Below are positions 2 to 56,609 of a stretch of DNA of 64,000 nucleotides, piece by piece. Below the pieces are notes generated by a model. The model made no database searches, was not told where the DNA came from, and worked only from the letters and a program-made list of their open reading frames with translations. The position numbers were made by a program, and so were the translations under genes. The stretch's first letter is position 1. Every line of letters begins with the position of its first letter. The stretch comes from Trichomonas vaginalis G3 (Eukaryota > Parabasalia > Trichomonadida > Trichomonadidae). Location of the stretch: the NCBI RefSeq assembly GCF_026262505.1, contig NC_067206.1, positions 24,505,896 to 24,569,895 on the forward strand, given 5' to 3'.

Positions 2-1307
2 ACAAAAATACAAGCGGATGAAGATAGTTCAAATGAAGCTTTAACAAATGCTGACTTTAAGAACGCCTTCGAAGCTCTTCATAGTAAGGTGAAACAAGTG
101 AACGACTTCTCATCTGGAAAGAAACTGAAGTCTGAAGGTTTCGACAAAGAGTTAAGAGAAGTAGCACAAAATATGACGAAAATAACAGATGCAGCAACGA
201 GACAGGCAGTTCAAAGTGCCTATGACGCCGTTAGAGCAACTGTTGTGGAAAGTCAAGAAAAAGAGTTACAACAGACCAAAACAGACCTAGTAAATGCTTT
301 CTTAAGAACGAAAAGTCAGGTAGGACATTATGCTGCAGATGGAACATATGTGCCAGCTGGTGGAACTTATATACCACCAAACCCTCCAAGAGAAGCACCT
401 GCACCAGGACTACCTAGAACATTTACATCGTCACATGGACACAGACACAGGCATGCACCAAAACCAACACAACAACCAACACAACAACCAACACAACAAC
501 CCACAACAACCAACACAACAACCAACAGTTCAAAACCCTGCACAACAACAACCACAAACAGAGCAAGGACATAAAAGAAGTAGAGAACAAGGAAACCAAG
601 AATTCTTAAAAATGCTTAAAGAAGAGTGTGGTTTCCCAGATACTGTTGACTTTAGTGACAGATATAAAGAAGCTATTAGAAAGTTCAAGGATGGAAATAC
701 TGACCCGAACCTATTTAGCTTTATGACTCAGCACCAAATGGGATATAATTTCAAACCTGGAAAATACAAGCTCGCTAAGGGATATGATTTAATAGCATAT
801 CATCCAAATGACATGAACGAATTTACTCCGAGATATTTGATGTCAGAGCTAAATGACAATACAACTTTCGTCATGAAACGCGTAAAAAATAGAGACGGAA
901 CGAAAGAAGAAAGGCTTATGAATGCGGATGACGTAGATAGGGAAATTGTTGAAAACGGTCTCGGAATATATGAAATGCCAGCAGATGAGGTACAAGAAAC
1001 TCCACAGGAAGAACTAGTTCAGATACAACCAGACATGGAAGAAATAGTTCGCACAACACAACAGCTAGAAGAGCCTGAAGGAAACGAACAAGTCACTCCT
1101 TTGGAAACTAACTTCACAGAACTAGATGAAGATTTGGAACAGCCGAAAAATCTTGACCCTCAACAAGAGCATGAGGTGAATATGGAATCTTTCCAAGAGT
1201 CTAAGAAAGATTCGGCTGACATAGTAGAAGAATATCGAAAAATGTTTGCCGACATACAAAAGACTCCAACACCAGATGAAATATTCAGCATAGAATGGAA
1301 GAACTGA
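2..1307 (+). pseudogene. Putative virion protein with Gln/Pro/Thr repeat, partial and frameshifted
   Basis: The reading frame is open from the window edge, so the start lies upstream. The first part (to about 470) is charged and helical. A tandem CAACAACCAACA tract at about 465-535 encodes QQPT repeats. The frame changes inside this tract: the upstream frame dies at 574, while the frame one base over continues to the stop at 1307. The downstream part is acidic and begins near 'GHKRSREQGNQEFLKML'. I do not recognise the family. Its place upstream of the capsid gene suggests a structural or assembly protein (inference). Slippage in the tandem repeat is the simplest cause of the frameshift. Confidence 0.55.
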
Positions 1308-5788: not shown

Positions 5789-7020
5789 ATGTACAGAATA
5801 GATGTTTCAGATTTTTATGACTTCCAAGCGTTCAGAAATATGTGTCCATTTAGAGACTATAACAAAGCAGTCGAGAACTTGAAACGTTTAGTCATTTATG
5901 TTGACTCTGCCCCAGAATGTTATGTTATGAAAGAATGGGATGTTGTCTTTAACAAACCAAGAGCAACCATAGTTTCAGAACAAGAATGTAGACAGAAACT
6001 TAAGAAAATAAAAGTCGTACAGGTTGGCATGAAGATGTTAGATGCTTGGGATATTTTATTGTCGAAGTTAGAAGATTTTTCAGTTCGTGGTATAAAGTTC
6101 TATACACCTTCTCCAAACTTCTATTCTATCTTCACTGGATATAAATACGAACAAGTAGAATGGAAAGAAAATATTATAGAAGCTTGGTTAGACCATGTCA
6201 AAGAAATTATATGCAATGGAAACGAAAGAGTCTATGAGTATATCTTATGTTGGTTTGCAAACATCTTACAACATCCAAGTGCTAAAAATGAAACTGCTCT
6301 CATTATAATTGGAAAACAAGGAACTGGTAAGAATACTTTCTTTACAGATATTTTGTGCAAACTGTTAGAGGGCTATTCGAATCCGAATATGACAAACTTA
6401 GAAAACATCTGCGGTAAATTTAACTCTTCAATAGAGAATATGAAACTTATAGTATGTAACGAACTTCAAAGTATAGATACAACAAAAGTTTTGAACTCAG
6501 ATGCTTTGAAGAGTCTTATAACAGACAAAGTTGGAGTTGTTGAAAGAAAATATAAAGACCAAAGAGTTTGTGAAAATTTGCAAACTTCATTATGGTTTCA
6601 AACAATGCTGTTCCGATGAAGTTAGAAAGTTCTGACAGAAGATATGTAGTTGTCAGAACGTCAGATTCTCATATGCAAGATACAGAATATTTTGACGACT
6701 TAGCAGAAACTTTGACACCTAACTTTTACAACCACTTGTTCTCATATTTCATGACATTAGATATTTCAAAGTTCAATCCAAGACAAATTCCACATACCGA
6801 AGAGAGACAAACATTGTTAGAAGCAAACAAGAGTGTATATGAACTGTTCATAGATGAAACTGACTTTGAGTGTTTAGATGAAAGGTCATTGTACGATTAT
6901 AAACAATATTGTCAAGAGTATGGTTATATGACAGCGTCTAAACGAACATTCTTGGCAAATGTCAAAAATCTTTTAGATGTTCAGAATGGTGTATATACAA
7001 AGAAAAATTTTTCTGAGTAA
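5789..7020 (+). pseudogene. SF3 helicase (primase-helicase C-terminal type), one frameshift
   Basis: The first 270 codons contain a Walker A motif 'GKQGTGKNTF' and a Walker B-like 'MKLIVCNELQ'. The following frame, overlapping from about 6575, carries motif C and the arginine finger ('VSNNAVPMKLESSDRRY'). Together they form one superfamily 3 helicase split by a shift at about 6572-6583 in a GAAAATTTG run. SF3 helicases unwind DNA during replication of nucleocytoplasmic viruses and Polinton-like elements. The N-terminal 150 residues have no primase motif that I can see. The start lies directly after the TTTTTAT-TTTT-ATAAAAATG start element, and an AT-only spacer follows the stop before the HNH gene. 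Confidence 0.75.
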
Positions 7021-8116: not shown

Positions 8117-8587
8117 TTACATGTCAAATTTCTTTTTCTCTGGAACTGGCTCTGGTTCTTTCTTCTCTTCTTCTACTTTCTTTTCTTCTACTTTCTTTTC
8201 TTTCTTTTCTCTCTTCTTCTTCTTCTCTGGTGGAGTTATGTCAAATTTGGCGCAACCATATTTATGTAAAAGTTCTTTGTCCTTTAATAGCTCATCTATT
8301 CTGTTTTCTATTTCATCTTCAAGAACAGCGCATGTGCCTTCTTTGCATTCTAAGAACTTTTGTTGGACTTCATCTTTCCAATCGGCGTCATCTCTGTCAA
8401 CAAGTCTGTCATTGACAAATTTTAAGACTGCTCTTTGTAATGTTTTATGGTTCTTGTCATATTCCCAGAAACAGAACTTTAGAACAAATTCACCTTTCTT
8501 GTTTACACTATGTAAGATTTTATGGTCGACAGAAGTTTTAGAGTCAAAAAGCTTGTCTCGAATATAGATAGCGAAATCGCTAGACAT
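8117..8587 (-). CDS. Uncharacterised Maverick protein with Lys/Glu-rich tail
   Basis: This 156-residue protein is read on the minus strand. The first 110 residues are mixed ('GEFVLKFCFWEYDKNHKTLQ') and the last 45 are a KKE/EKK/VEEKK tail. The plus-strand frame over the same bases is Ser/Phe low complexity, as expected of a shadow. The start at 8587 faces the ATPase start 36 bp away across a shared A/T start element, and the stop is 17 bp from the convergent stop at 8100. Function unknown; the charged tail suggests nucleic-acid or protein binding. Confidence 0.6.
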   Translation of the reverse strand: MSSDFAIYIRDKLFDSKTSVDHKILHSVNKKGEFVLKFCFWEYDKNHKTLQRAVLKFVNDRLVDRDDADWKDEVQQKFLECKEGTCAVLEDEIENRIDELLKDKELLHKYGCAKFDITPPEKKKKREKKEKKVEEKKVEEEKKEPEPVPEKKKFDM

Positions 8588-8623
8588 TTTCTAAAAGATA
8601 AAAATTTTAATTTTTCTAAAAAT
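8588..8623. promoter_or_regulatory. Shared divergent start element
   Basis: A 36-bp A/T-only spacer separates the outward-facing ATGs at 8587 (minus) and 8624 (plus). It contains AAAAATTTTAATTTTTCTAAA, with symmetric T-runs facing both genes, and no other open frame uses it. Confidence 0.4.
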
Positions 8624-9496
8624 ATGTTAGAAAAAAAGTTTGCTGACATTGACAAGAAATTTGAGAATGTTTTGAAGAAGAACAAGAGGAAGTTAGAAAA
8701 TGCTCAGATAAAACCTATACATGACAAGTTCTTATTTGCTCAGAATGGTATAACAGGTCTAATTGCACCACCTGGGTCGGGTAAGACTTTCACTTATCTT
8801 AAAATGGCTGCACAACAACAAGAACTAGATGAGAAGAACCCATTCTATGAGTTAGTAGTCATTTGTAGTACTTCTGGTCAATTTGACCAAACCGTAAATT
8901 CGTTCAAAGATATTATAAAAAAGTCTAAGTTAGTATGTATAAAAGACTCTGAGTTGTTAGATTGGATAAAGAAGTACCAAAGAAGAGTTTTGAAGTACAA
9001 TGCTATAAATGAGTATGTCAATTCGAAGTTTAAAGACCCAAATGAGGAAATGCAGAGAATATTAGAGAAGAAACACTTCAGAAACAAACAGAAAGAGATA
9101 GAATACATTTCGAAGAAATTGCAATCTTACGATTGGAAGACTTACCCTCATAGATGTCTTCTTATCTTAGATGACTTTGCTTCTCATCCTTTGTTAAAGA
9201 ACAGAGAACAAGACATGTGTCGAATTCTTAAGAAGCTCAGACACTTTAACATCTCAGTTGTCATTTGTGTACAGACAGCAAAGAGTTTAAGTAAGGATGT
9301 AAAGAGAATACTTACTGATATCATACTTTTCCCTGGATTGTCCGAAGACGATTTCATGGAACTTATGAAAGAGTCCATGGCAGGTAAGTTTGACAGACAT
9401 GAACTATGGGAGAAGTACAAAGTCATACAAGACCCTCATACTTCTTTCAGAATTCACATCTACGCGAACAAAGTTCAAATTGTAAAAAGTCAATAA
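8624..9496 (+). CDS. Genome-packaging ATPase (FtsK/HerA, A32-like)
   Basis: The start is taken at 8624, just inside an open frame that extends further upstream, because the upstream part overlaps the divergent gene. The 290-residue product has Walker A 'GLIAPPGSGKTF' near residue 45 and Walker B 'CLLILDDFAS' near residue 185. It also has the conserved downstream Gln segment 'ISVVICVQTAKSLSKDVKR', the layout of A32-like packaging ATPases of Polintons, virophages and NCLDV. It would pump element DNA into the capsid. The frame is intact, unlike the capsid genes. A terminal-repeat-like block begins at the stop codon. Confidence 0.8.
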   Translation: MLEKKFADIDKKFENVLKKNKRKLENAQIKPIHDKFLFAQNGITGLIAPPGSGKTFTYLKMAAQQQELDEKNPFYELVVICSTSGQFDQTVNSFKDIIKKSKLVCIKDSELLDWIKKYQRRVLKYNAINEYVNSKFKDPNEEMQRILEKKHFRNKQKEIEYISKKLQSYDWKTYPHRCLLILDDFASHPLLKNREQDMCRILKKLRHFNISVVICVQTAKSLSKDVKRILTDIILFPGLSEDDFMELMKESMAGKFDRHELWEKYKVIQDPHTSFRIHIYANKVQIVKSQ

Positions 9497-9590
9497 AAAT
9501 AATGTTTAGGGTAGAAGGTTAGATATACCCTCTTTTCTACCCTCTTTTCTACCCCAGTTATTTTATAAGCGTTTTACATGGTAAACGTTA
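9493..9590. repeat. Solo copy of unit terminus plus gene 3' end
   Basis: AATGTTTAGGGTAGAAGG followed by GTTAGATATACCC, TCTTTTCTACCC units and CAGTTATTTTATAAGCG. The same approximately 95 bases recur at 9668-9763, where they form the left end of a complete single-gene unit including the last codons of its gene. This copy therefore looks like the remnant of another insertion or a tandem duplication of the end. The 9591-9667 spacer holds no gene. Confidence 0.6.
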
Positions 9591-9675
9591 TTTTTAAAAT
9601 TTTGTGAAAACTCAACGGTTTGACACATGCCCTAAAAATTATTTTACTCAGAATTTTACTCAGAATTCAATAAAA

Positions 9676-10793
9676 ATATAATTTAGGGTAGAAGGTTAGA
9701 TATACCCTCTTTTCTACCCTCTTTTCTACCCCAGTTATTTTATAAGCGTTTTACATGGTAAACATTGTGAATTCGTGAAATTCTAAACAATTTCGTAGCT
9801 TCTATTTCTTCTGTCAGTACATCGAATGTTTTAACTATGCCGAATGTTTCTTTATATTTCTTCTTGACGTCAGATAGAAGGAAATCGTCAGCTGTTGGAT
9901 AGTTTTTGTTTAGAAATGTCAACATGTCCATTTTATCTTCTGCTGGTTTCTCTGCCTCCCTCTTTAAGTCAGCATAGTCGTTTCGCATACGTTCTATCTC
10001 TTTGACGGAGTAGTTATATTTCCTCATTACTGCTTTACATTTTGAACATTGTGGGTTCATTTTAGCATTGTACATTGAAATCTTACCTGCTAGTATGACT
10101 AAGGCGTCAATTGCTCTCTTTAACTCAAAAGTTGCGGGTTTTATCTGTTCATTCCATATCTTACCTCTTCTATCTTTATCTCTTATCTGCCATACACATT
10201 TTGCAACTAACGAAACAAAGTTGTCGTAGGTCTTAAACTCCCCAGATTTGTATATGTCAGAGATGTTCTTATATACCATATCGCAATCTTTGTCCATGAC
10301 TTTGTGGTTGCAATGAAATCCAAGAAACTCATAGTTAACCTTTCGTATGAACTTCTTTATTTCTACTGAGTCAGTTGCTTTGACTTCTATTTCATCGAAT
10401 TCTGGAATAGTAAGCTTTTGTTGTTGGATTTCAGGTAGTTTAGGCAAATGGTCAATAATGTCCTGCATTTCATAAAGATACTGTTCATTTGTTTCATCTT
10501 TCGCAGTGCAATCTAAATCTCCTTGGAGAAGTTCTTGCTTTATCTTCTGGATTGTTGTTTCGAAAGTATATGAAGAAGGAATGAAGCTTTTCATCTCTAC
10601 TAACATTGAAGTTGGGTTCATGACTAAAGAGTTTGGTGCTGTTGTTGCTAACATGTTCTTACAATAAAAATAAAAAATATTTTTTTAAAAAAACCAACTT
10701 TATTTTTTATTTCGGGAAAACTCATGACAAATTCAAGAGGGTAGAAAAGAGGGTAGAAAAGAGGGTAGATATACCCTTCTACCCTAAAATATA
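9676..10793. mobile_element. Single-gene unit with ~50-bp inverted termini (copy A)
   Basis: The left terminus at about 9676 (TTTAGGGTAGAAGG, then TTAGATATACCC and TCTTTTCTACCC repeats) is mirrored at 10737-10793 on the opposite strand. Between them lies one gene (9740-10654, minus). A homologous gene in element 2 is bounded by a perfect inverted repeat of about 52 bases with the same architecture. The two Maverick families are otherwise unlike, so this unit seems to move or recombine independently. No transposase motif was recognised. Confidence 0.55.
9740..10654 (-). CDS. Orphan protein of the inverted-repeat unit (copy A)
   Basis: This 304-residue intact protein is highly similar over its full length to the product at 55611-56555 in the other element. 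Visible features are a conserved N-terminus 'NSLVMNPTSMLVEMKSFIPS', Cys/His residues in 'FLGFHCNHKVMDKDCDM', a 'PQCSKC' pair near residue 205 that could bind zinc, and a long charged helix ('VKEIERMRNDYADLKREAEK'). I recognise no catalytic motif. The start follows TATTTTTTATTTTTATTGTAA. The gene lies inside about 50-bp inverted termini, which makes it the candidate mobility or maintenance protein of that unit (inference). It might equally be a passenger or a DNA-binding regulator. Confidence 0.65.
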   Translation of the reverse strand: MLATTAPNSLVMNPTSMLVEMKSFIPSSYTFETTIQKIKQELLQGDLDCTAKDETNEQYLYEMQDIIDHLPKLPEIQQQKLTIPEFDEIEVKATDSVEIKKFIRKVNYEFLGFHCNHKVMDKDCDMVYKNISDIYKSGEFKTYDNFVSLVAKCVWQIRDKDRRGKIWNEQIKPATFELKRAIDALVILAGKISMYNAKMNPQCSKCKAVMRKYNYSVKEIERMRNDYADLKREAEKPAEDKMDMLTFLNKNYPTADDFLLSDVKKKYKETFGIVKTFDVLTEEIEATKLFRISRIHNVYHVKRL

Positions 10794-10799
10794 TTTTTG
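10735..10799. repeat. Right inverted terminus of unit copy A
   Basis: TTCAAGAGGGTAGAAAAGAG with two more GGGTAGAAAAGA units, GTAGATATACCC and TTCTACCCTAAAATAT: the reverse complement of the block at about 9676-9735. The same block, with GGTTAGAAAAGA units, recurs at 23128-23195. Confidence 0.6.
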
Positions 10800-10820
10800 C
10801 TGAAAAAGTGTCATTTTTTC

Positions 10821-11284: not shown

Positions 11285-11904
11285 TTACTTGTATGGGCAA
11301 GCTGCAAGAATGAAGTCGACTATCTCGGTCTTTGTCTTGACCAGTTGGACTGCTCTTGCGAGTACGTCTGTTTTGCGGTCTCCAGCTGGTGTCTGACCTT
11401 CGTAATTGCGCATGTTCTTGAGAGCTCCAGTTGTAAATGGTTGTAGGATGAAGAGTCTCTCAGACTGCTTGAGGTAGTCTTCACGGTCACGAACCGAATC
11501 TGTGGTACGAGTCGAATCGGTCGATTTGAGGGAAGAGACTGAAAGCCTGTCGTCTTCCATAGGGGCTGTGGCATACTCTTTGCGTAAGCGGTTCAGACCT
11601 TCTTCGAACTCTTGGTCTCTCTTCGATTGGGATTGAGATTGGAATTGGGGTGGAGGGTTTGACATGAACATCCAAGGGTTAGGGAAGTAAGGCATGGGTT
11701 GAGGAGGGTAGTTTGGAAAGCCTTGTGGTGGGTAGTAACCTTGAGGTGGGTAGTAACCTTGAGGTGGAAATTGGTAGTAATTCGGAGGTCCTTGTTGGAA
11801 CTGAGGTTGCTGTGGGTAGCCTTGTGGAGGTGGAACCTGTTGTGGTGCTGGAGCATGCTGTTCTCTGGCTGTGGAACGGGTTCAGTAGGTGGGACGTCGG
11901 ACAT
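11285..11904 (-). pseudogene. Pro/Gln/Tyr-rich protein with helical C-terminus, frameshifted
   Basis: Reading minus, the ATG at 11904 opens 'MSDVPPTEPVPQPEN', but the biased segment that follows is read one frame over. There, 'PPQGYYPPQGYYPPQG' and other Pro/Gln/Tyr repeats run into a charged C-terminal half ending 'DFILAACPYK' at 11285. The shift lies at about 11855-11880. The low-complexity N-terminal half resembles disordered, phase-separating or virion-tegument regions (inference). The C-terminal about 135 residues contain a Ser/Thr/Asp/Arg segment ('STDSTRTTDSVRDRE'). Family unknown. The 21-bp repeat array begins just upstream of its start, between this gene and the divergent gene at 12256. 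Confidence 0.5.
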
Positions 11905-11934
11905 TCGTTTGTGTCTTAACCGTCTTTGTTCTGA

Positions 11935-12250
11935 AACAATATAATATTGTCTTGAAAAAGTACAACATTGTCTTGAAAAAGTACAACATTGTCTTGAAAA
12001 AGTACAACATTGTCTTGAAAAAGTACAACATTGTCTTGAAAAAGTACAACATTGTTCTGAAAAAGTTCAAGACTTGTTCTGAAAAAGTACAGCTGTACTC
12101 AAATTTGAGAGACATTGTACTGAATTTATACAACATTGTTCTGAAAAAGTACAACATTGTTCTGAAAAAGTACAATATTGTCTTGAAAAAGTACAACATT
12201 GTCTTGAAAAAGTACAACATTGTCTTGAAAAAGTACAATATTGTACTGAC
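11935..12250. repeat. Minisatellite: 21-bp units between divergent genes
   Basis: About fourteen units of the form TTGTCTTGAAAAAGTACAACA, with some carrying TTCTGAAAAAG instead of CTTGAAAAAG. A diverged stretch at about 12065-12130 interrupts the array. Each unit contains ACAA-CA-TTGT, an inverted repeat with a two-base centre. Because the unit length is a multiple of three and stop-free, both strands stay open, which makes long false frames. Placement between two outward-facing genes suggests a regulatory or protein-binding array (inference). Confidence 0.85.
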
Positions 12251-12255
12251 TCAGT

Positions 12256-12630
12256 ATGGAGCTTGACCCCTTAGACGAAGCAATTTATCTAATTGAGGTA
12301 AATGAAACCGTGAAGGAATATCTCAGCAAGTGCAAACCAAGCAAGTCCATTGGCTTCTGGTTGTCCAAGAATAGTGTCTTAAAGTTGGAAATTGAAACAG
12401 GTGTTGCAATTCAAGTTCCAGAAGGCACTGCATTCGATGATATTAAGGATGTGAAGAAAGAAGCCCTCTTGAAGTTCTTCATGAAACGTCCTTGGATACT
12501 ACTTCCATATCGTGAGAGCCCAATTCCACGAATTACACAAATTCTCAGAGCACTACTTCACTACTCTGGACAGCCGTTCTTCATAACCTCAGAAGGCGAC
12601 ATCCAACAATTCTTCAAGCCAGTTCAGTAA
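12256..12630 (+). CDS. Uncharacterised 124-residue protein
   Basis: The start ATG at 12256 follows TACTGACTCAGT at the end of the minisatellite; the frame is open upstream only because the repeats contain no stops. The product begins MELDPLDEAIYLIEVNE and contains 'FFMKRPWILLPYRESPIPRI', then an aromatic C-terminus. Mixed alpha/beta appearance; no known motif. It belongs to the GC-richer block. The gene is intact, so it may be functional; I have no basis for a role. Confidence 0.5.
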   Translation: MELDPLDEAIYLIEVNETVKEYLSKCKPSKSIGFWLSKNSVLKLEIETGVAIQVPEGTAFDDIKDVKKEALLKFFMKRPWILLPYRESPIPRITQILRALLHYSGQPFFITSEGDIQQFFKPVQ

Positions 12631-18112: not shown

Positions 18113-19072
18113 ATGACGAATCCAAACAAGGACCCCTATGTTTCTAAGGCAACAAAGAAAGCACTCATGATAAAAATCTTTAGTTCAACACCAAATGCTT
18201 GGTTTATGGATATCTTGGAAAACATTCCGAGGTATAGAGAAGATGGACCACCATACTGGCTAATATTTGTCGGTCAAAACACAAGATACTGTGAAGCCAT
18301 ACCATTACAGTCCAAAAATATTTTAGATGTGAAAACTGCTTTGACAATATTCGTTGACAAATACCATCCAACAAAACTGACATCTGACTGTGAAAGTTCT
18401 TTCAAATCAGACGATATTAAAAACTATCTGCGTTCAAAAAATGTAAACCAATATTTCATTGTCGACCAAAACCATTCTGCTCTTGGTGTCATTGACAGTT
18501 GTATAAAAATCTTAAGAGACTTAAATCAACCACAAGGTGGTGAGGTAGATGAAATGTCATATGACGACAAATATAGACACTTCTCCATGGCAAAGATGAG
18601 ACAAGTTTTAAATATTTACAATAGCCGTAAACAAAAAGGTTTGGGAAACCACTCCCCCGAAGAAATGAAAAACAACCCTGACTTAGAGAAAGACTATATA
18701 TTTAATAGTTTAGTCAAAAGAGACAAACAAGAAAGAATGCCAGGCTTCAAACTTAAGAAAGGTGACAAAGTAAAAATAGAAATACCTAAACGCGACCCAT
18801 ATGAAAATACTATTGACTATGACAACAATGGGAACTCGACAGGTACTCGCATTCGTGTTCGTAAAAATAGAAGAAAGTATACAAGAGAATATTATGAAGT
18901 TTTAGGCAAACATGGCAAAATGTACACACTGCAAGCAGAAGATAAAACTACTATTGTCAGACCTCGTTTCAAACTTGTCAAAGTTCAAGGTGGTATACTT
19001 TCAAAGACAGTTCCTAACAAATATAAGACAACTCCTGACGAATATGCTAAAGAAGTTGAAAATGACGACTAA
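18113..19072 (+). CDS. Retrovirus-type integrase (rve fold)
   Basis: This intact 319-residue protein has an RNase H-like core. The first Asp is in 'WFMDILENIPRY', the second in 'LTSDCESSF', and the third acidic position lies 35 residues further in 'QNHSALGVIDSCIKILRD', where Asp replaces the usual Glu. The C-terminal part is basic ('RIRVRKNRRKYTREYYEVL') and resembles an SH3-like DNA-binding domain. No N-terminal HHCC zinc finger is visible, and the protein starts close to the core. It would insert the element into host DNA. Its stop codon overlaps the stop of the convergent tail-fibre gene. Confidence 0.8.
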   Translation: MTNPNKDPYVSKATKKALMIKIFSSTPNAWFMDILENIPRYREDGPPYWLIFVGQNTRYCEAIPLQSKNILDVKTALTIFVDKYHPTKLTSDCESSFKSDDIKNYLRSKNVNQYFIVDQNHSALGVIDSCIKILRDLNQPQGGEVDEMSYDDKYRHFSMAKMRQVLNIYNSRKQKGLGNHSPEEMKNNPDLEKDYIFNSLVKRDKQERMPGFKLKKGDKVKIEIPKRDPYENTIDYDNNGNSTGTRIRVRKNRRKYTREYYEVLGKHGKMYTLQAEDKTTIVRPRFKLVKVQGGILSKTVPNKYKTTPDEYAKEVENDD

Positions 19073-20597
19073 GCAATTCTATACCATGCGTAAACTGTCA
19101 TGTAAGGTGGCATGTATTCTTTACTTTGTCCCGTTGTTTGCGTATATCCTGAAACCAAATGTGTATGGCTTCCTCCTCCCTGAGTGTCATCCCAGTAACA
19201 ATTTATAGCAAAATCAACGTCGTCTTTAACATCATATCCTTTACCTTTTGTCATTCTTGACCAATCCCAATATCTATGCTTATGCCAACCTTCTAGAGAT
19301 GTACTTAAATTTATGTAATGACTGTGCGCAGGTAGGTTTTCACCTGAAATCGTTTTACTTCCACCTGTTTCCTTTGAAGAGTTTGCACAATACAAAAACC
19401 TGTCGACTATTTGAGTCCAAGTTCCAAAACCAAGTACTACTTCTGGTCTGGTAGAGTTCATTGAAACATACAATGAGCCAACCGGGTAATAAGATTCGGC
19501 AAAATTTGTTTAAGCACATTGAGTTCCTGTCTTAGATGTATAATACTATTGTCATTAGATATCAAAGTATCTACAAGACTTGTTGCCGGTGGTATTGTTG
19601 GAGCTTTACTTGGCAAGGTTGTGTTTAGTGTAATATCATCTGCTGTAAAAGTTGTAAAACTTGTATGTGTATGTCCAACGTCACTTTTCCTGTTTAAGGT
19701 TTCTTGTAAGTTTGTAATATTTGCAATGGTATGTGTATGTCCAACGTCACTTTTCCTGTTTAAGGTTTCTTGTAAGTTTGTAATATTTGCAATGGTATGT
19801 GTATGTCCAACGTCACTTTTCCTGTTTAAGGTTTCTTGTAAGTTTGTAATATTTGCAATGGTATGTGTATGTCCAACGTCACTTTTCCTGTTTAAGGTTT
19901 CTTGTAAGTTTGTAATATTTGCAATGGTATGTGTATGGTTCTTGTCAGCTTTGCCATCTAACTTTTCTTGTAAGTTTGTAATATTTGCAATGGTATGTGT
20001 ATGAGTCTTGTCAGCTTTGCCATCTAACTTTTCTTGTAAGTTTGTAATATTTGCAATGGTATGTGTATGAGTCTTTTTAGAATATTCGTTTTCAGCTCTT
20101 GTCACTTCACTTGACATTTTATTGTCAACATATGTTTTGTCAGCTTTGTTGTCAACATCTGCTTTTGTTGCATATGTTGCATCTGCTCTGTCATGTTCTT
20201 CTTGAACTTTTTCAATGACATACTCTTTGTCAGCTTTCTTTTCAACATCTGCTTTTGTTGCATATGTTGCATCTGCTCTGTCATGTTCTTCTTGAACTTT
20301 TTCAATGACATATTCTTTGTCAGCTTTGTTGTCAACATCTGCTTTCAAAAGAAGTTCATCTATAGGTTTCTCGTTTAAAGTTCCTTTTGTTGGATTTACA
20401 CAGACAGTATGGTTCTTATTGTCTTGAAATAGAAACTCATCTGTCATTGGGTTTAATGTCAGTTTTAAGTTTCCTTCTTTCAATGACTCAGATATCTTAG
20501 AATAGTTTGAAAAGTTTGTTGTGTTCTTATTTAGAGCTTGCAAAATGAGTTGTCGGTTGTGTTTTATTTCTCTCATAGACGCTGTTTCTTTCGACAT
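19069..20597 (-). pseudogene. Phage-like tail fibre with HTH repeats and collar-type tip, one frameshift
   Basis: Read minus from 20597. An N-terminal stretch is followed by 'YATKADVDNKADKTYVDNKM'-style coiled repeats, then at least six near-identical repeats around 'HTHTIANITNLQE' of about 66 bases, as in bacteriophage tail-fibre repeats. The C-terminal domain, one frame over from about 19500, has 'YPVGSLYVSMNSTRPEVVLG', 'LPAHSH', 'GGGSHTH' and 'PPYMTVYAWYRIA', the layout of Gram-positive phage collar or baseplate tip domains. Total about 509 codons. It would be a trimeric receptor-binding fibre (inference from the phage families). The shift is in the GCTTAAACAAATTTT stretch near 19500-19512. 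The product at 58054-59100 shares the tip. Confidence 0.75.
19700..20075. repeat. In-gene tandem repeats of about 63-66 bp in the tail fibre
   Basis: Six units encode the HTH-IANITNLQ repeat. Four central ones are virtually identical at the base level, two are variants. Such near-identity points to recent expansion or homogenisation, which would change fibre length. Confidence 0.85.
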
Positions 20598-20615: not shown

Positions 20616-21464
20616 ATGCTTTCAATAGAAAAAGAAAATTCAAGAGTTGCTACAACTAAACCATTAGATGAACTTTTTACGAATGTCGGTCAAAAGTTTG
20701 AGACAGAGACCGTAAAGCATGAAGGCTATCGTTTTGACTACCCACTAAGATGGTTAAGAGACCCATCCGTCACAAAAGCTATTGGCTTTCGTAGAATGAA
20801 GTTCATTTCAGAAGCCATACATGGTTTCCCATTTACGGTCGCTTTTGAAATTCGATACTATAACAAAGAAAAACGTACGTATGAGAAATTTGAACAGGGA
20901 AAACTTTTACAAGTTAGTTTGCTTGTAAACTTAGAAACAACTCTTCAAGCTTTTCAAGAAAAAATAAACGATATCTATCTCGAATATGCAAAACAGTACA
21001 ACATTGACGAAGGAGAGTACCATCTCGATATTTTATATGACAGGAAAAATGCAACTGTTAAAATCAATAGAATAGAAGACCTTGGAGACAACGTTTATAT
21101 TTCTACAAAATATAACAACTTGGCATGGTATAGATTTTTGAGGATGTTAAATCAGCCTGCATGGTATCCAGTACACCCGGACTATTATGAAGTCGAAAAC
21201 CCTAATGGAACATATGAAAATGTTTTCGACCCAGATGCTATTATTGTTCATGCTTCATTTTCTGGCGCCCAAAACTCTTTCTTATGCTTGGCAAATGACT
21301 TTTACGAAAAAGCTACAAAGCTATATGAACCACCGAGTGGAAGTATTTCAGACTTTCAAGTATGGTTTACAACAGATGGAAGAAAGAGAATAGTTCCATT
21401 ATACCATGCGTTTTACTTAGAACTTAGTCTCATATACAACTACTATCGAACGGTAAAAATATAA
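20616..21464 (+). CDS. Putative virion protein paired with the tail fibre
   Basis: This intact 282-residue protein starts after TTTTATTCTAGATAAAAT, 18 bp from the divergent fibre start. It is beta-rich with many aromatics ('NLAWYRFLRMLNQPAWYPVH'), and the last third ('SISDFQVWFTTDGRKRIVPL') ends in a Leu/Tyr strand. A protein of similar size next to the fibre in element 2 (59125-59865) has a comparable final segment, suggesting equivalent fibre-associated or spike-base proteins (inference). No family motif recognised. Its stop is 3 bp from a convergent stop. Confidence 0.5.
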   Translation: MLSIEKENSRVATTKPLDELFTNVGQKFETETVKHEGYRFDYPLRWLRDPSVTKAIGFRRMKFISEAIHGFPFTVAFEIRYYNKEKRTYEKFEQGKLLQVSLLVNLETTLQAFQEKINDIYLEYAKQYNIDEGEYHLDILYDRKNATVKINRIEDLGDNVYISTKYNNLAWYRFLRMLNQPAWYPVHPDYYEVENPNGTYENVFDPDAIIVHASFSGAQNSFLCLANDFYEKATKLYEPPSGSISDFQVWFTTDGRKRIVPLYHAFYLELSLIYNYYRTVKI

Positions 21465-22113: not shown

Positions 22114-22245
22114 TTACGAGTACATATACTGGACATTTGCAGGCATTGGTTCATCTTCATATTCTCTATATCTTTCTGCCACGTCAAATAAATAAATGAC
22201 ACAATGGAAAAAACCTAAAACTAACAATCCGATTTCAAACCACAT
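22114..22245 (-). CDS. Small single-pass membrane protein overlapping the methylase end
   Basis: Read minus from the ATG at 22245 to a TAA at 22114: 43 residues, with a hydrophobic segment ('IGLLVLGFFHCVIYLF') near the N-terminus and a charged tail ('RYREYEDEPMP'). It overlaps the last 25 bases of the methylase gene. A hydrophobic stretch followed by a charged tail in an otherwise empty spacer argues for a real gene, but the length leaves doubt. Small membrane proteins occur in many dsDNA viruses. Confidence 0.45.
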   Translation of the reverse strand: MWFEIGLLVLGFFHCVIYLFDVAERYREYEDEPMPANVQYMYS

Positions 22246-23048
22246 TTACTTACCAATAAAATTTCTTTGTTATGACACTTTCTCCAGTTTATAGGACCTC
22301 TCTCATATTCTATCTTATCGTATCTAAACTCATAGTCATGTATGTCCTCTAACCATCTCATGACACTTTCCAAACCACTTTTATCGGATGTAAAGTAAAA
22401 GCATGGACAGTTATGTAAAACGTCTAAAGTTTCTAAAGAGTCTCTCAAAGTCCAGTCTACCTGGTATTGAAAATCCCATGTGTTATAGAACGGCGGGTCC
22501 ACTATAAAGAAAACATTTTCCTTGTCTTTATATTTTTCATACAACTCTGTCCAATGACATCTCACAAACTCTATACCCTCAATATATTTTTCTATGTCCT
22601 CTTTGAAAACATTTGTATAGTTAAGATATAAAACTTTTGACATAAGTGTTTCAATGTCATGAACTCTTATAGCACCACTATATAATAGTCTAGCAGATAT
22701 ACTATTCCAGTCTATATATTCTGCTTTTTTCAAAACCTCTCTCACAATATTTTTCTTATCTAATGGTATACGTTCCATCTTACCTATAGGTATCTTTTCT
22801 TTTAACGCTTTCAATATATTGTTTGTGTCTGGTATATGTTTGAGACGGTCCATATAGTTGTCGAAGTCATTGCATATAATCTTTGAGTCTGGGAATATTG
22901 TATGACATAAATGGGATATATAGAAACTTCCACCGAACAAATCTACAAATGTTAGACCATTCGGTAGTTTCTTAAGTTCTCTCAATATAATATCTTTACA
23001 TTTACTCTTATTTCCAAAGAAGGGTAACGGTGGTTTTGTAAAATTCAT
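22221..23048 (-). CDS. DNA N6-adenine methyltransferase (Dam/D12 class)
   Basis: This intact 275-residue protein has the D12-class layout: 'PPLPFFGNKSKCKDIIL' at the N-terminus (SAM-binding PFxGxK form), 'LTFVDLFGGSFYISHL' as motif I, and the catalytic 'FFIVDPPFYNTW' (DPPF, a form of DPPY) near residue 185. It would methylate adenines in DNA. Trichomonads are known to carry 6mA as a main DNA mark, and Maverick-borne methylases have been proposed as the source. Upstream there are two GTCACTTTT initiator-like sequences besides the A/T start element. It is the last gene before the terminal-repeat-like block. Confidence 0.85.
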   Translation of the reverse strand: MNFTKPPLPFFGNKSKCKDIILRELKKLPNGLTFVDLFGGSFYISHLCHTIFPDSKIICNDFDNYMDRLKHIPDTNNILKALKEKIPIGKMERIPLDKKNIVREVLKKAEYIDWNSISARLLYSGAIRVHDIETLMSKVLYLNYTNVFKEDIEKYIEGIEFVRCHWTELYEKYKDKENVFFIVDPPFYNTWDFQYQVDWTLRDSLETLDVLHNCPCFYFTSDKSGLESVMRWLEDIHDYEFRYDKIEYERGPINWRKCHNKEILLVSKCGLKSDC

Positions 23049-23127
23049 TTATATATAATAATAAAAATGTTTTTTCCTGAAAAGTGACAGAAAAGTGACA
23101 AAACATGTACGAAGAAGTCTTGAAAAT

Positions 23128-23195
23128 TCAAGAGGGTAGAAAAGAGGTTAGAAAAGAGGTTATATCTAACCTTCTACCCTAAACATTATTTTTGT
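23128..23195. repeat. Terminal-repeat-like block near the right end of element 1
   Basis: CAAGAGGGTAGAAAAGAGG, GTTAGAAAAGAGG, GTTATATCTAACC and TTCTACCCTAAACATTATTT: the same architecture as the inverted termini of the single-gene unit at 9.68-10.79 kb. Flanking sequence contains TACGAAGAAGTCTTGA twice (about 23108 and 23205). Related TTGTCAAGACTTCTTCG sequence is found in the 54.4 kb repeats. Confidence 0.55.
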
Positions 23196-23309
23196 CTGAT
23201 TTTACGAAGAAGTCTTGACAAAACATGAAAACATATATAATTTGTGAAAAGCTCCTGGAAGACCCGTATATAAGAACTTCATTTATACTAAACATCTTCA
23301 GGGCTAGAA

Positions 23310-55444: not shown

Positions 55445-56609
55445 GTTTATGTTAGCATGTTAGATCTAACACGTTTTCTAACCACTTTTCTAACATGGTC
55501 TAAAACACACAAAACTCATGAAAACAATTTATTTTTAACACTTTCACAAAAAAAATAAAAAATAAAGTTAGTTTTTTATAAAATATTTTTTTTATTTTGT
55601 ATGTAAAGATATGATTTCAACAATAGGTTCTACAACACTTCAAACAACAACTTCACCAAACTCTTTAGTTATGAATCCAACATCTATGTTAGTAGAGATG
55701 AAAAGCTTCATTCCTTCTTCATATACTTTTGAGACAGAAATCCAGAAGATAAAGCAAGAACTTTTAACAAGTACTTTGGACTGTTGTGCGAAAGATGAAC
55801 AAAATGAAAAGTATCTTTATGACATGCAGGACATTATTGACCATTTACCCAAATTGCCTGAAATCCAACAACAAAAGCTCACTATTCATGAATTCGATGA
55901 AATAGAAGTGAAACCAACTGACTCAGTAGAAATAAAGAAGTTCATACGTAAAGTAAACTATGAGTTTCTAGGATATCATTGCAACCATAAAGTTATGGAC
56001 AAAGATTGCGACATGGTATATAAGAACATCTCTGACATATATAAATCTGAAGAATTTAAGACCTACGACAACTTTGTTTCGTTAGTTGCTGAATGTGTAT
56101 GGCAGATAAGAGATAAAGATAAAAGATGTAAAATATGGAACGAACAAATCAGACCTACATATTCTGAGTTAAAGAAAACCATTGACGCCTTAGTTGTTCT
56201 AGCAGGTCAAATTTCAATGTATAACGCAAAAATGAACCCACAATGTTCAAAATGTAAAGCAGCAATAAGGAAATATAACTACTCCGTCAAAGAGATAGAA
56301 CGTATGCGAAACGACTATGCTGACTTAAAGAAAGAAGTAGAGAAACCAGCAGAAGATAAAATGGACATGTTAGCATTTCTGAACAAAAACTATCCAACAG
56401 CTGACGATTTCCTATTATCTGATGTCAAGAAGAAGTATAAAGAAACCTTCGGCATAGTTAAAATTTTTGATATTCTTCGTGAAGAAATAGAAGCTACAAA
56501 ACTGTTTAAAGTCATGAACCATCGCAACATATACCATGTAAACGTTTGTAAATAGTTATGTTAGAAAAGTGGTTAGAAAACGTGTTAGATCTAACATGCT
56601 AACATAAAC
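55445..56609. mobile_element. Single-gene unit with ~52-bp inverted termini (copy B)
   Basis: The left end 55445-55496 (GTTTATGTTAGCATG, GTTAGATCTAACACG, TTTTCTAACCACTTTTCTAA) is repeated in perfect reverse complement at 56558-56609. One intact gene (55611-56555) lies between. Length 1.17 kb, close to copy A (1.12 kb). Copy A termini use TACCC where copy B uses TAACC, but order and palindromic centre are the same. Confidence 0.65.
55611..56555 (+). CDS. Orphan protein of the inverted-repeat unit (copy B)
   Basis: This 314-residue intact protein is collinear with the product at 9740-10654. Shared blocks include 'NSLVMNPTSMLVEMKSFIPS', 'KKFIRKVNYEFLG', 'CNHKVMDKDCDMVYKNISDI', 'MNPQCSKCKA' and 'NYPTADDFLLSDVKKKYKET'. 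Differences are mostly conservative, which suggests selection on the protein. The start follows TTTTTTTTATTTTGTATGTAA. The Cys/His pattern may bind zinc. No nuclease, transposase or polymerase motif was recognised. The KilA-N gene nearby uses the same TTTTATTTTGTATGTAA start element. Confidence 0.65.
   Translation: MISTIGSTTLQTTTSPNSLVMNPTSMLVEMKSFIPSSYTFETEIQKIKQELLTSTLDCCAKDEQNEKYLYDMQDIIDHLPKLPEIQQQKLTIHEFDEIEVKPTDSVEIKKFIRKVNYEFLGYHCNHKVMDKDCDMVYKNISDIYKSEEFKTYDNFVSLVAECVWQIRDKDKRCKIWNEQIRPTYSELKKTIDALVVLAGQISMYNAKMNPQCSKCKAAIRKYNYSVKEIERMRNDYADLKKEVEKPAEDKMDMLAFLNKNYPTADDFLLSDVKKKYKETFGIVKIFDILREEIEATKLFKVMNHRNIYHVNVCK

Follow-up and report, generated by a model that had tools for sequence, protein, structure and literature searches.

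We analyzed a 64,000-nucleotide (nt) stretch of the Trichomonas vaginalis G3 genome (contig NC_067206.1, positions 24,505,896 to 24,569,895; hereafter the window), part of which is Maverick sequence. A gene at 19069–20597 on the minus strand of this Maverick stretch is probably the host-recognition fibre of a Maverick virion, with a receptor-binding head that would be of phage origin, recombining and diversifying. According to its sequence, the fibre consists of a phage-type shaft and tip behind an anchor that we found only in Trichomonas. In the proposed mechanism, the Trichomonas-specific N-terminus would hold a trimer to the capsid, most likely at a penton that the divergently oriented neighbour DUF7777 would encode. 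The phage-type shaft of coiled-coil and PTR repeats would determine the reach of the fibre, and the T4 gp10-like tip would contact the receptor through the region between its two conserved ends. The shaft and tip would recombine as a cassette among Maverick lineages with differing N-termini, and repeat units would be duplicated or lost, so that their number changes. In tip type A, the distal part would be under diversifying selection, with the remaining gene conserved.

In the window copy, the fibre is split over two minus-strand open reading frames (ORFs), 20597–19458 and 19473–19069, which differ in frame and share 16 nt in the ORF list. Because the frames of shaft and tip differ, this copy is either broken or affected by an indel in the assembly. 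A preliminary description of this DNA had presented 19069–20597 as one gene; the fibre is real, but it occupies two frames here instead of a single open one. The first ORF (19458–20597, minus strand; 379 amino acids, aa) contains the N-terminal anchor, coiled-coil-like repeats and six PTR units, and ends out of frame with the tip. Its anchor, which we call class A, spans 20331–20597 on the same strand (89 aa; presumed capsid attachment), and class A anchors were 93–100% identical to that of the window across 150 scored genomic matches. Two 90-nt tandem units (20128–20307, minus strand), with a partial third unit at 20308–20345, code for the coiled-coil-like repeat ADKEYVIEKVQEEHDRADATYATK. ADKTYVD, previously described as a repeat, occurs only once in this tandem, behind two ADKEYVI units. 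The six HTHTIANITNLQ units of 66 nt (19674–20069, minus strand) were confirmed. The last four of them (19937–19674), which had been termed nearly identical, match at 66 of 66 nt in the DNA, which is a sign of recent duplication or homogenisation. The second ORF (19069–19473, minus strand; 134 aa) starts at TTG and encodes the tip, a Gp10_C-like domain. This domain contains three HxH motifs, whose codons begin at 19326, 19284, and 19167. The motifs YPVGSLYVSMNSTRP and PPYMTVYAWYRIA, already noted in the preliminary description, are both found in the tip frame.

The first ORF matched the Pfam family PTR (PF12789) with 282.7 bits (E 6.6e-86; cut-off 27). The tip ORF matched Gp10_C (PF21939, the family of the T4 gp10 C-terminus) with 73.2 bits (E 5.5e-20; cut-off 27) over model positions 12–139 of 139. 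Four unbroken sister proteins from other loci were scanned, and all four carried PTR and Gp10_C, the latter with 81–94 bits from position 1 to 138 or 139. The PHROG tail families agree with the Pfam assignments. With such profile scores, the domain matches are not due to chance. In tblastn, 27 phage records were obtained for the window tip and 631 for the type B tip of locus L045. The identities among the matches listed were 26–34%, and these matches include Lactobacillus phage antireceptors and tail fibres. L045 also finds T4 gp10 in the PDB by sequence (E 8.2e-4); the only PDB sequence matches retrieved by the window tip, two antibody chains (E 0.17 and 0.98), were rejected. Weak matches of the window ORFs and the four sisters to Apolipoprotein, DUF4116, and DUF4795 all fell below the cut-offs of these families and were discarded as better eukaryotic candidates. 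The phage-type shaft and tip proposed earlier are therefore borne out by Pfam, PHROG, and the phage relatives of the tip, and the profile search that had been suggested for the C-terminal part was significant.

The N-termini gave a different picture from the shaft and tip. PHROG searches at E up to 0.01 gave no match for the first 95 residues of the unbroken fibre L036, for the N-termini of both other classes described below, or for DUF7777. The tip and N-terminal regions of L036 are 100% identical, and equal in length, to those of the T. vaginalis G3 protein TVAG_411810. Among the protein-set relatives, all named ones were from T. vaginalis (best 120 of 655 for the tip and best 120 of 362 for the N-terminus), with two on the N-terminus list unnamed. 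Many copies are named tail fiber protein, phage tail repeat-like family, or baseplate structural protein in the databases.

The structure of the tip was modelled as a monomer. Its pLDDT (predicted local confidence) was 74–90 in the first 30 residues and 76–87 at the end, and the model was weak in between. Foldseek with this weak model returned four rows (E 0.11–1.1), none of them significant; three were T4 gp10 chains and one was a 607-residue Klebsiella phage baseplate chain of like length. The preliminary description would have been abandoned for lack of a profile or structural match to phage fibres, or in favour of a closer eukaryotic family; the profile match is significant and no eukaryotic family is closer, but the structural match of the tip stays below significance. 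HxH motifs in phage fibres can bind metal. The three such motifs of the tip were invariant in eight aligned Trichomonas tips, and single sister copies deviate. In the layout described for T4 gp37 and the virophage DSLV2 (PMC12724248), conserved ends enclose a variable middle, and the Trichomonas tip is built alike.

Relatives of the tip were found at 27 loci on viral contigs, and both loci with neighbours examined (L051 and L053) adjoin phage tail genes. A tree was built from 15 Trichomonas tips and 25 phage or viral-contig tips, namely 8 phage tips chosen by hand from the tblastn matches and 17 of the 27 viral-contig loci. The Trichomonas tips formed one group (100/100), which fits a single acquisition and a later split into the types A and B. 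A closest phage lineage of the tip was not assigned, with 19 of the 37 inner branches of the tree open and two long rows meeting.

The phage kinship of the tip also bears on an alternative, in which the fibre binds bacteria like its phage relatives and the particle enters the trichomonad together with a bacterium on which the parasite feeds. T. vaginalis does ingest bacteria. Its bacteria-targeting enzymes are the subject of a published paper, and the phage antireceptors and tail fibres among the tip relatives fit such a route. PMC12724248 reports that a virophage with T4 gp37-like tails binds the lipopolysaccharide of Synechococcus, and proposes that it hitchhikes into bacterivorous algae. 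However, direct evidence for a bacterial ligand is lacking, and the type of ligand is not transferable from phages because the Trichomonas tips form one group on a long branch (0.85). We consider this bacterial route unlikely.

The genome (180.85 Mb) yielded at least 150 scored copies each for the tip, the N-terminus, and Gp10_C, out of 4,823, 2,324, and 4,413 candidates, respectively. Forty sister loci were chosen by hand from 150 N-terminal matches. All 40 contained at least partial matches to DUF7777, the N-terminus, the tip, and the integrase, with the neighbours degraded in some. The fibres of 30 of the 40 loci were unbroken to the tip by the length rule, or 29 without L026, which has a frameshift in its last residues. 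This 29 of 40 overstates the unbroken share because the chosen loci lean to long frames (frames of 390 aa or more are open in 35 of the 40 loci vs 101 of the 150 matches). The 29 unbroken fibres are 391–607 aa long. The survey of repeat number proposed in the preliminary description showed that the numbers differ among Maverick copies: the exact HTHTIANITNLQ motif was absent from 8 of these fibres, occurred once in 12, and occurred two to five times in 9. Inspection of the sister proteins by eye indicated that the shaft also differs by alternative middle modules.

At least three different N-termini bear the same kinds of shaft and tip. A common origin of the three N-termini did not emerge from their pairwise comparison (best E 0.074). 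In a blastn comparison limited to the three best targets per query, the first 346 nt of L050 had no match to the best class A targets, and L050 was 93.2% identical to L040 over 916 nt, reaching 6 nt before the end of the L050 ORF. Over 715 columns near the end of L049, the identity to L045 was 80.7%, and the integrase beside L049 is only 33% identical to that of the window. The flanks of L050 contained no match to DUF7777 or integrase in ~1.5 kb upstream and ~1.2 kb downstream. These comparisons show, at the level of sequence, that shaft-and-tip cassettes are shared across different N-termini. Within the class A loci, the distances of DUF7777, N-terminus, tip, and integrase were uncorrelated (rho -0.12 to 0.09), and those of N-terminus and tip came closest to significance (13 of 200 permutations). 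Only full-length matches were kept for these tests (27, 40, 34, and 31 of the 40 loci, respectively). In tip A, all four combinations were found at 302 of 528 site pairs.

The gene of the DUF7777 protein (20616–21464, plus strand; 282 aa) lies head-to-head with the fibre gene, with 18 nt between the ORF starts. The predicted fold of this protein most closely resembles the pentons of mavirus and adenovirus, and DUF7777 is a probable penton protein. The arrangement can be compared with the penton and fibre of adenovirus, in that a penton-like predicted protein is found here beside a fibre gene. When the fibre was scanned with Pfam, neither the window ORFs nor the four sisters gave a match to an adenovirus fibre family. 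At the loci L012, L013, L016, L022, L024, and L032, class A fibre N-termini that are 94–99% identical adjoin DUF7777 proteins that are 46–65% identical (best piece). Because these near-identical N-termini adjoin divergent DUF7777 proteins, the fibre and the penton-like gene seem to assort freely. Of note, four unnamed ENA proteins (P0250–P0253; 377–402 aa) are ~30% identical to DUF7777 and could possibly be pentons of Mavericks in other protists.

Next to the exchange of cassettes, the tip shows an uneven distribution of amino-acid and silent changes. For each codon column, we took the minimum number of amino-acid (N) and silent (S) changes, a count that needs no tree, and compared it with the neutral opportunity. 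The type A sample consisted of 50 tips (28 from the 40 loci, 20 chosen near the window tip, and 2 from the Gp10_C picks), and 18 of the 19 type B tips came from the Gp10_C picks. L026 was left out of the selection counts. Over all 67 distal codons of type A, we counted N72:S13 (ratio 1.43, p 0.28). The first 56 of these codons gave N69:S7 (ratio 2.49, p 0.015), and the last 11 gave N3:S6 (ratio 0.15). The excess over neutral is significant only for these 56 codons, whose boundary was set after the data had been seen. When only variants present in at least three copies were counted, N44:S5 was obtained over 67 codons (p 0.078) and 41:2 over 56 codons (p 0.007). The distal part of type B showed no excess (N44:S31, ratio 0.46). 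Low ratios were found in the tip scaffold (N11:S17, 0.20; with EARG-type scaffolds, which were left out of this main count, N27:S23, 0.37) and in the fibre N-terminus (N15:S12, 0.35). The controls gave N31:S40 for DUF7777 (0.21, p 1.5e-10; 23 of the 40 loci, comprising only the type at least 90% identical to that of the window) and N17:S10 for the integrase (0.47, p 0.06; 29 of the 40 loci). The contrast between the distal tip A and the rest of the gene was strong (Fisher p 3.8e-6). The pairwise ratio of amino-acid-changing to silent differences (pN/pS) in the distal part, calculated without L045, was 1.71 (95% range 0.84–4.45). All these p values are guides, because the copies are related and recombine. 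The conserved anchor, scaffold, and DUF7777 together with the variable distal tip speak, as far as substitution patterns can, for past selection, and are silent on present activity.

These counts weigh on the possibility that the fibre genes are passive relics, in other words source-element copies whose differences arose by neutral decay and gene conversion and which had no recent function. The window copy is broken, as are 11 of the 40 sisters when a terminal frameshift is counted as a break, in a set chosen with a lean towards long frames. In addition, the expression of element ORFs was reported to be very low (PMC7845603). On the other hand, amino-acid changes in the N-terminus, the tip scaffold, and DUF7777 are fewer than expected under neutrality, and the contrast of the distal tip persists in the variants of at least three copies. 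Neutral relics are therefore, in our view, a rather improbable explanation.

It is very unlikely that the protein is an adhesin of the parasite itself. The very many copies (best 150 scored of the 2,324 N-terminus candidates) and the phage-type domains, which could bind cells or bacteria, would fit an adhesin. However, matches to DUF7777 and integrase adjoin the fibre in all 40 loci, and the N-terminus, judged by eye, is hydrophilic and without an evident signal sequence. If the tip were diversified by a targeted mutator (for example, a diversity-generating retroelement) instead of selection, this would explain why almost only amino-acid-changing differences occur over the 56 codons. This possibility can hardly be credited, as there was no adenine-specific pattern (A involved in 56 of 76 changes vs 38 of 55 in N-terminus and scaffold), although no search was aimed at a reverse transcriptase or a template repeat.

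For the host-recognition fibre, a tip that varies and swaps between elements as if it were tracking a moving receptor suggests that the elements once lived as real viruses. We propose more tentatively that T. vaginalis Mavericks were once infectious viruses in a receptor arms race. They would have drawn on a common pool of phage-derived shaft and tip cassettes, swapped between lineages that differ in their capsid anchors and with the distal tip diversified, like the host-range fibres of tailed phages. In the boldest form of this proposal, the ligand would be bacterial and entry would occur through the bacterivory of the parasite. A diversifying distal tip beside a conserved anchor and a penton candidate would be evidence of past selection for cell entry, and the question of whether Mavericks are infectious viruses becomes testable. 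If true, host-range cassettes would be exchanged in a eukaryotic setting in the way known from phages.

About one third of the T. vaginalis genome consists of Mavericks, whose missing capsid genes spoke for classing them as transposons until the capsid report of 2023 (PMC10120064). They have spread recently, with fused and nested copies, and 25 of 38,656 element ORFs were reported as expressed (PMC7845603). Phage-like fibres with PTR repeats in T. vaginalis elements have already been published (PMC12220804). According to that paper, polinton-like viruses use phage-like fibres viewed as penton-attached and cell-binding, and in those of T. vaginalis elements (n = 20) as many as seven PTR repeats are fused with a collagen-like domain. 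Instead of the collagen-like domain, the window fibre has the Gp10_C tip; scans of the window ORFs and of the four sisters gave no collagen family, and a stretch of six GXX triplets was absent from all 29 unbroken sisters. The HTHTIANITNLQ units are members of the PTR phage tail repeat proteins (PF12789), and here the number of units varies among element copies, with four units DNA-identical. T4 gp10, whose Gp10_C model is matched by the tip over nearly its whole length and whose structure entries are matched by L045, is a baseplate protein of a tailed phage, whereas here the domain terminates a fibre, within Maverick sequence that also includes the capsid gene DUF4106. Similar to the Trichomonas fibre, DSLV2 has a phage-type fibre in a small eukaryotic virus, with conserved collar ends around a variable head. 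Its tripartite tail, as presented in PMC12724248, consists of three genes that have PF07484 collar domains and resemble gp37, in contrast to the one gene with PF21939 described here. OLV18 and OLV19 were reported as tail-collar proteins of a virophage (PMC3671162). In the portions of the literature covered by our search, mainly open-access work, we recognised no paper on the gp10-type tip, the penton candidate, the exchange of cassettes, or the pattern of selection; PMC11071308 mentions neither Trichomonas nor fiber.

The Maverick sequence extends to about 23.2 kb of the window and is followed by the host genes RPN2 and SRP68. The Maverick setting given in the preliminary description is supported by an integrase and a capsid gene in the same stretch. 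The integrase (rve; 18113–19072, plus strand) is convergent with the fibre, and the two ORF ends overlap by 4 nt (PF00665, E 9.5e-8, 32.7 bits vs a cut-off of 32.6). The DUF4106 ORF at 330–1307 (plus strand) corresponds to the C-terminal part of the Maverick major capsid protein (E 9.3e-114, model positions 228–429 of 431); DUF4106 was reported to be the capsid protein (PMC10120064). A Pox_A32-type match at 8522–9496 (plus strand; PF04665, E 1.4e-6) indicates an ATPase, possibly the packaging ATPase. DUF5906, which we take to be of the primase/helicase type, was also matched in the Maverick stretch (5789–6619). The capsid, DUF5906, ATPase, integrase, fibre, and DUF7777 genes lie in one Maverick stretch and may all belong to a single element. 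PolB was not matched among the window ORFs scanned with Pfam, which are only part of the window ORFs, and the left end of the element lies outside the window. No other phage tail genes were found among the window ORFs scanned.

Several further observations concern the element. A conserved, partly palindromic repeat of ~70 nt lies between element genes in both orientations (9490–9569, 9664–9746, 10729–10804, and 23119–23215). It may be a terminator or regulatory element. The inverted repeats of this size appear to be internal to the element rather than terminal. A 21-nt tandem array (14 registers) at 11884–12291 of the window overlaps listed open frames of both strands. The ORF at 22221–23048 (minus strand) matched the phage DNA methyltransferase family phrog_56 (E 7e-15). 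Finally, the element contains a DUF3839 gene (9740–10654), and an inverted stretch that is 89% alike is located ~45 kb away, at 55645–56508.
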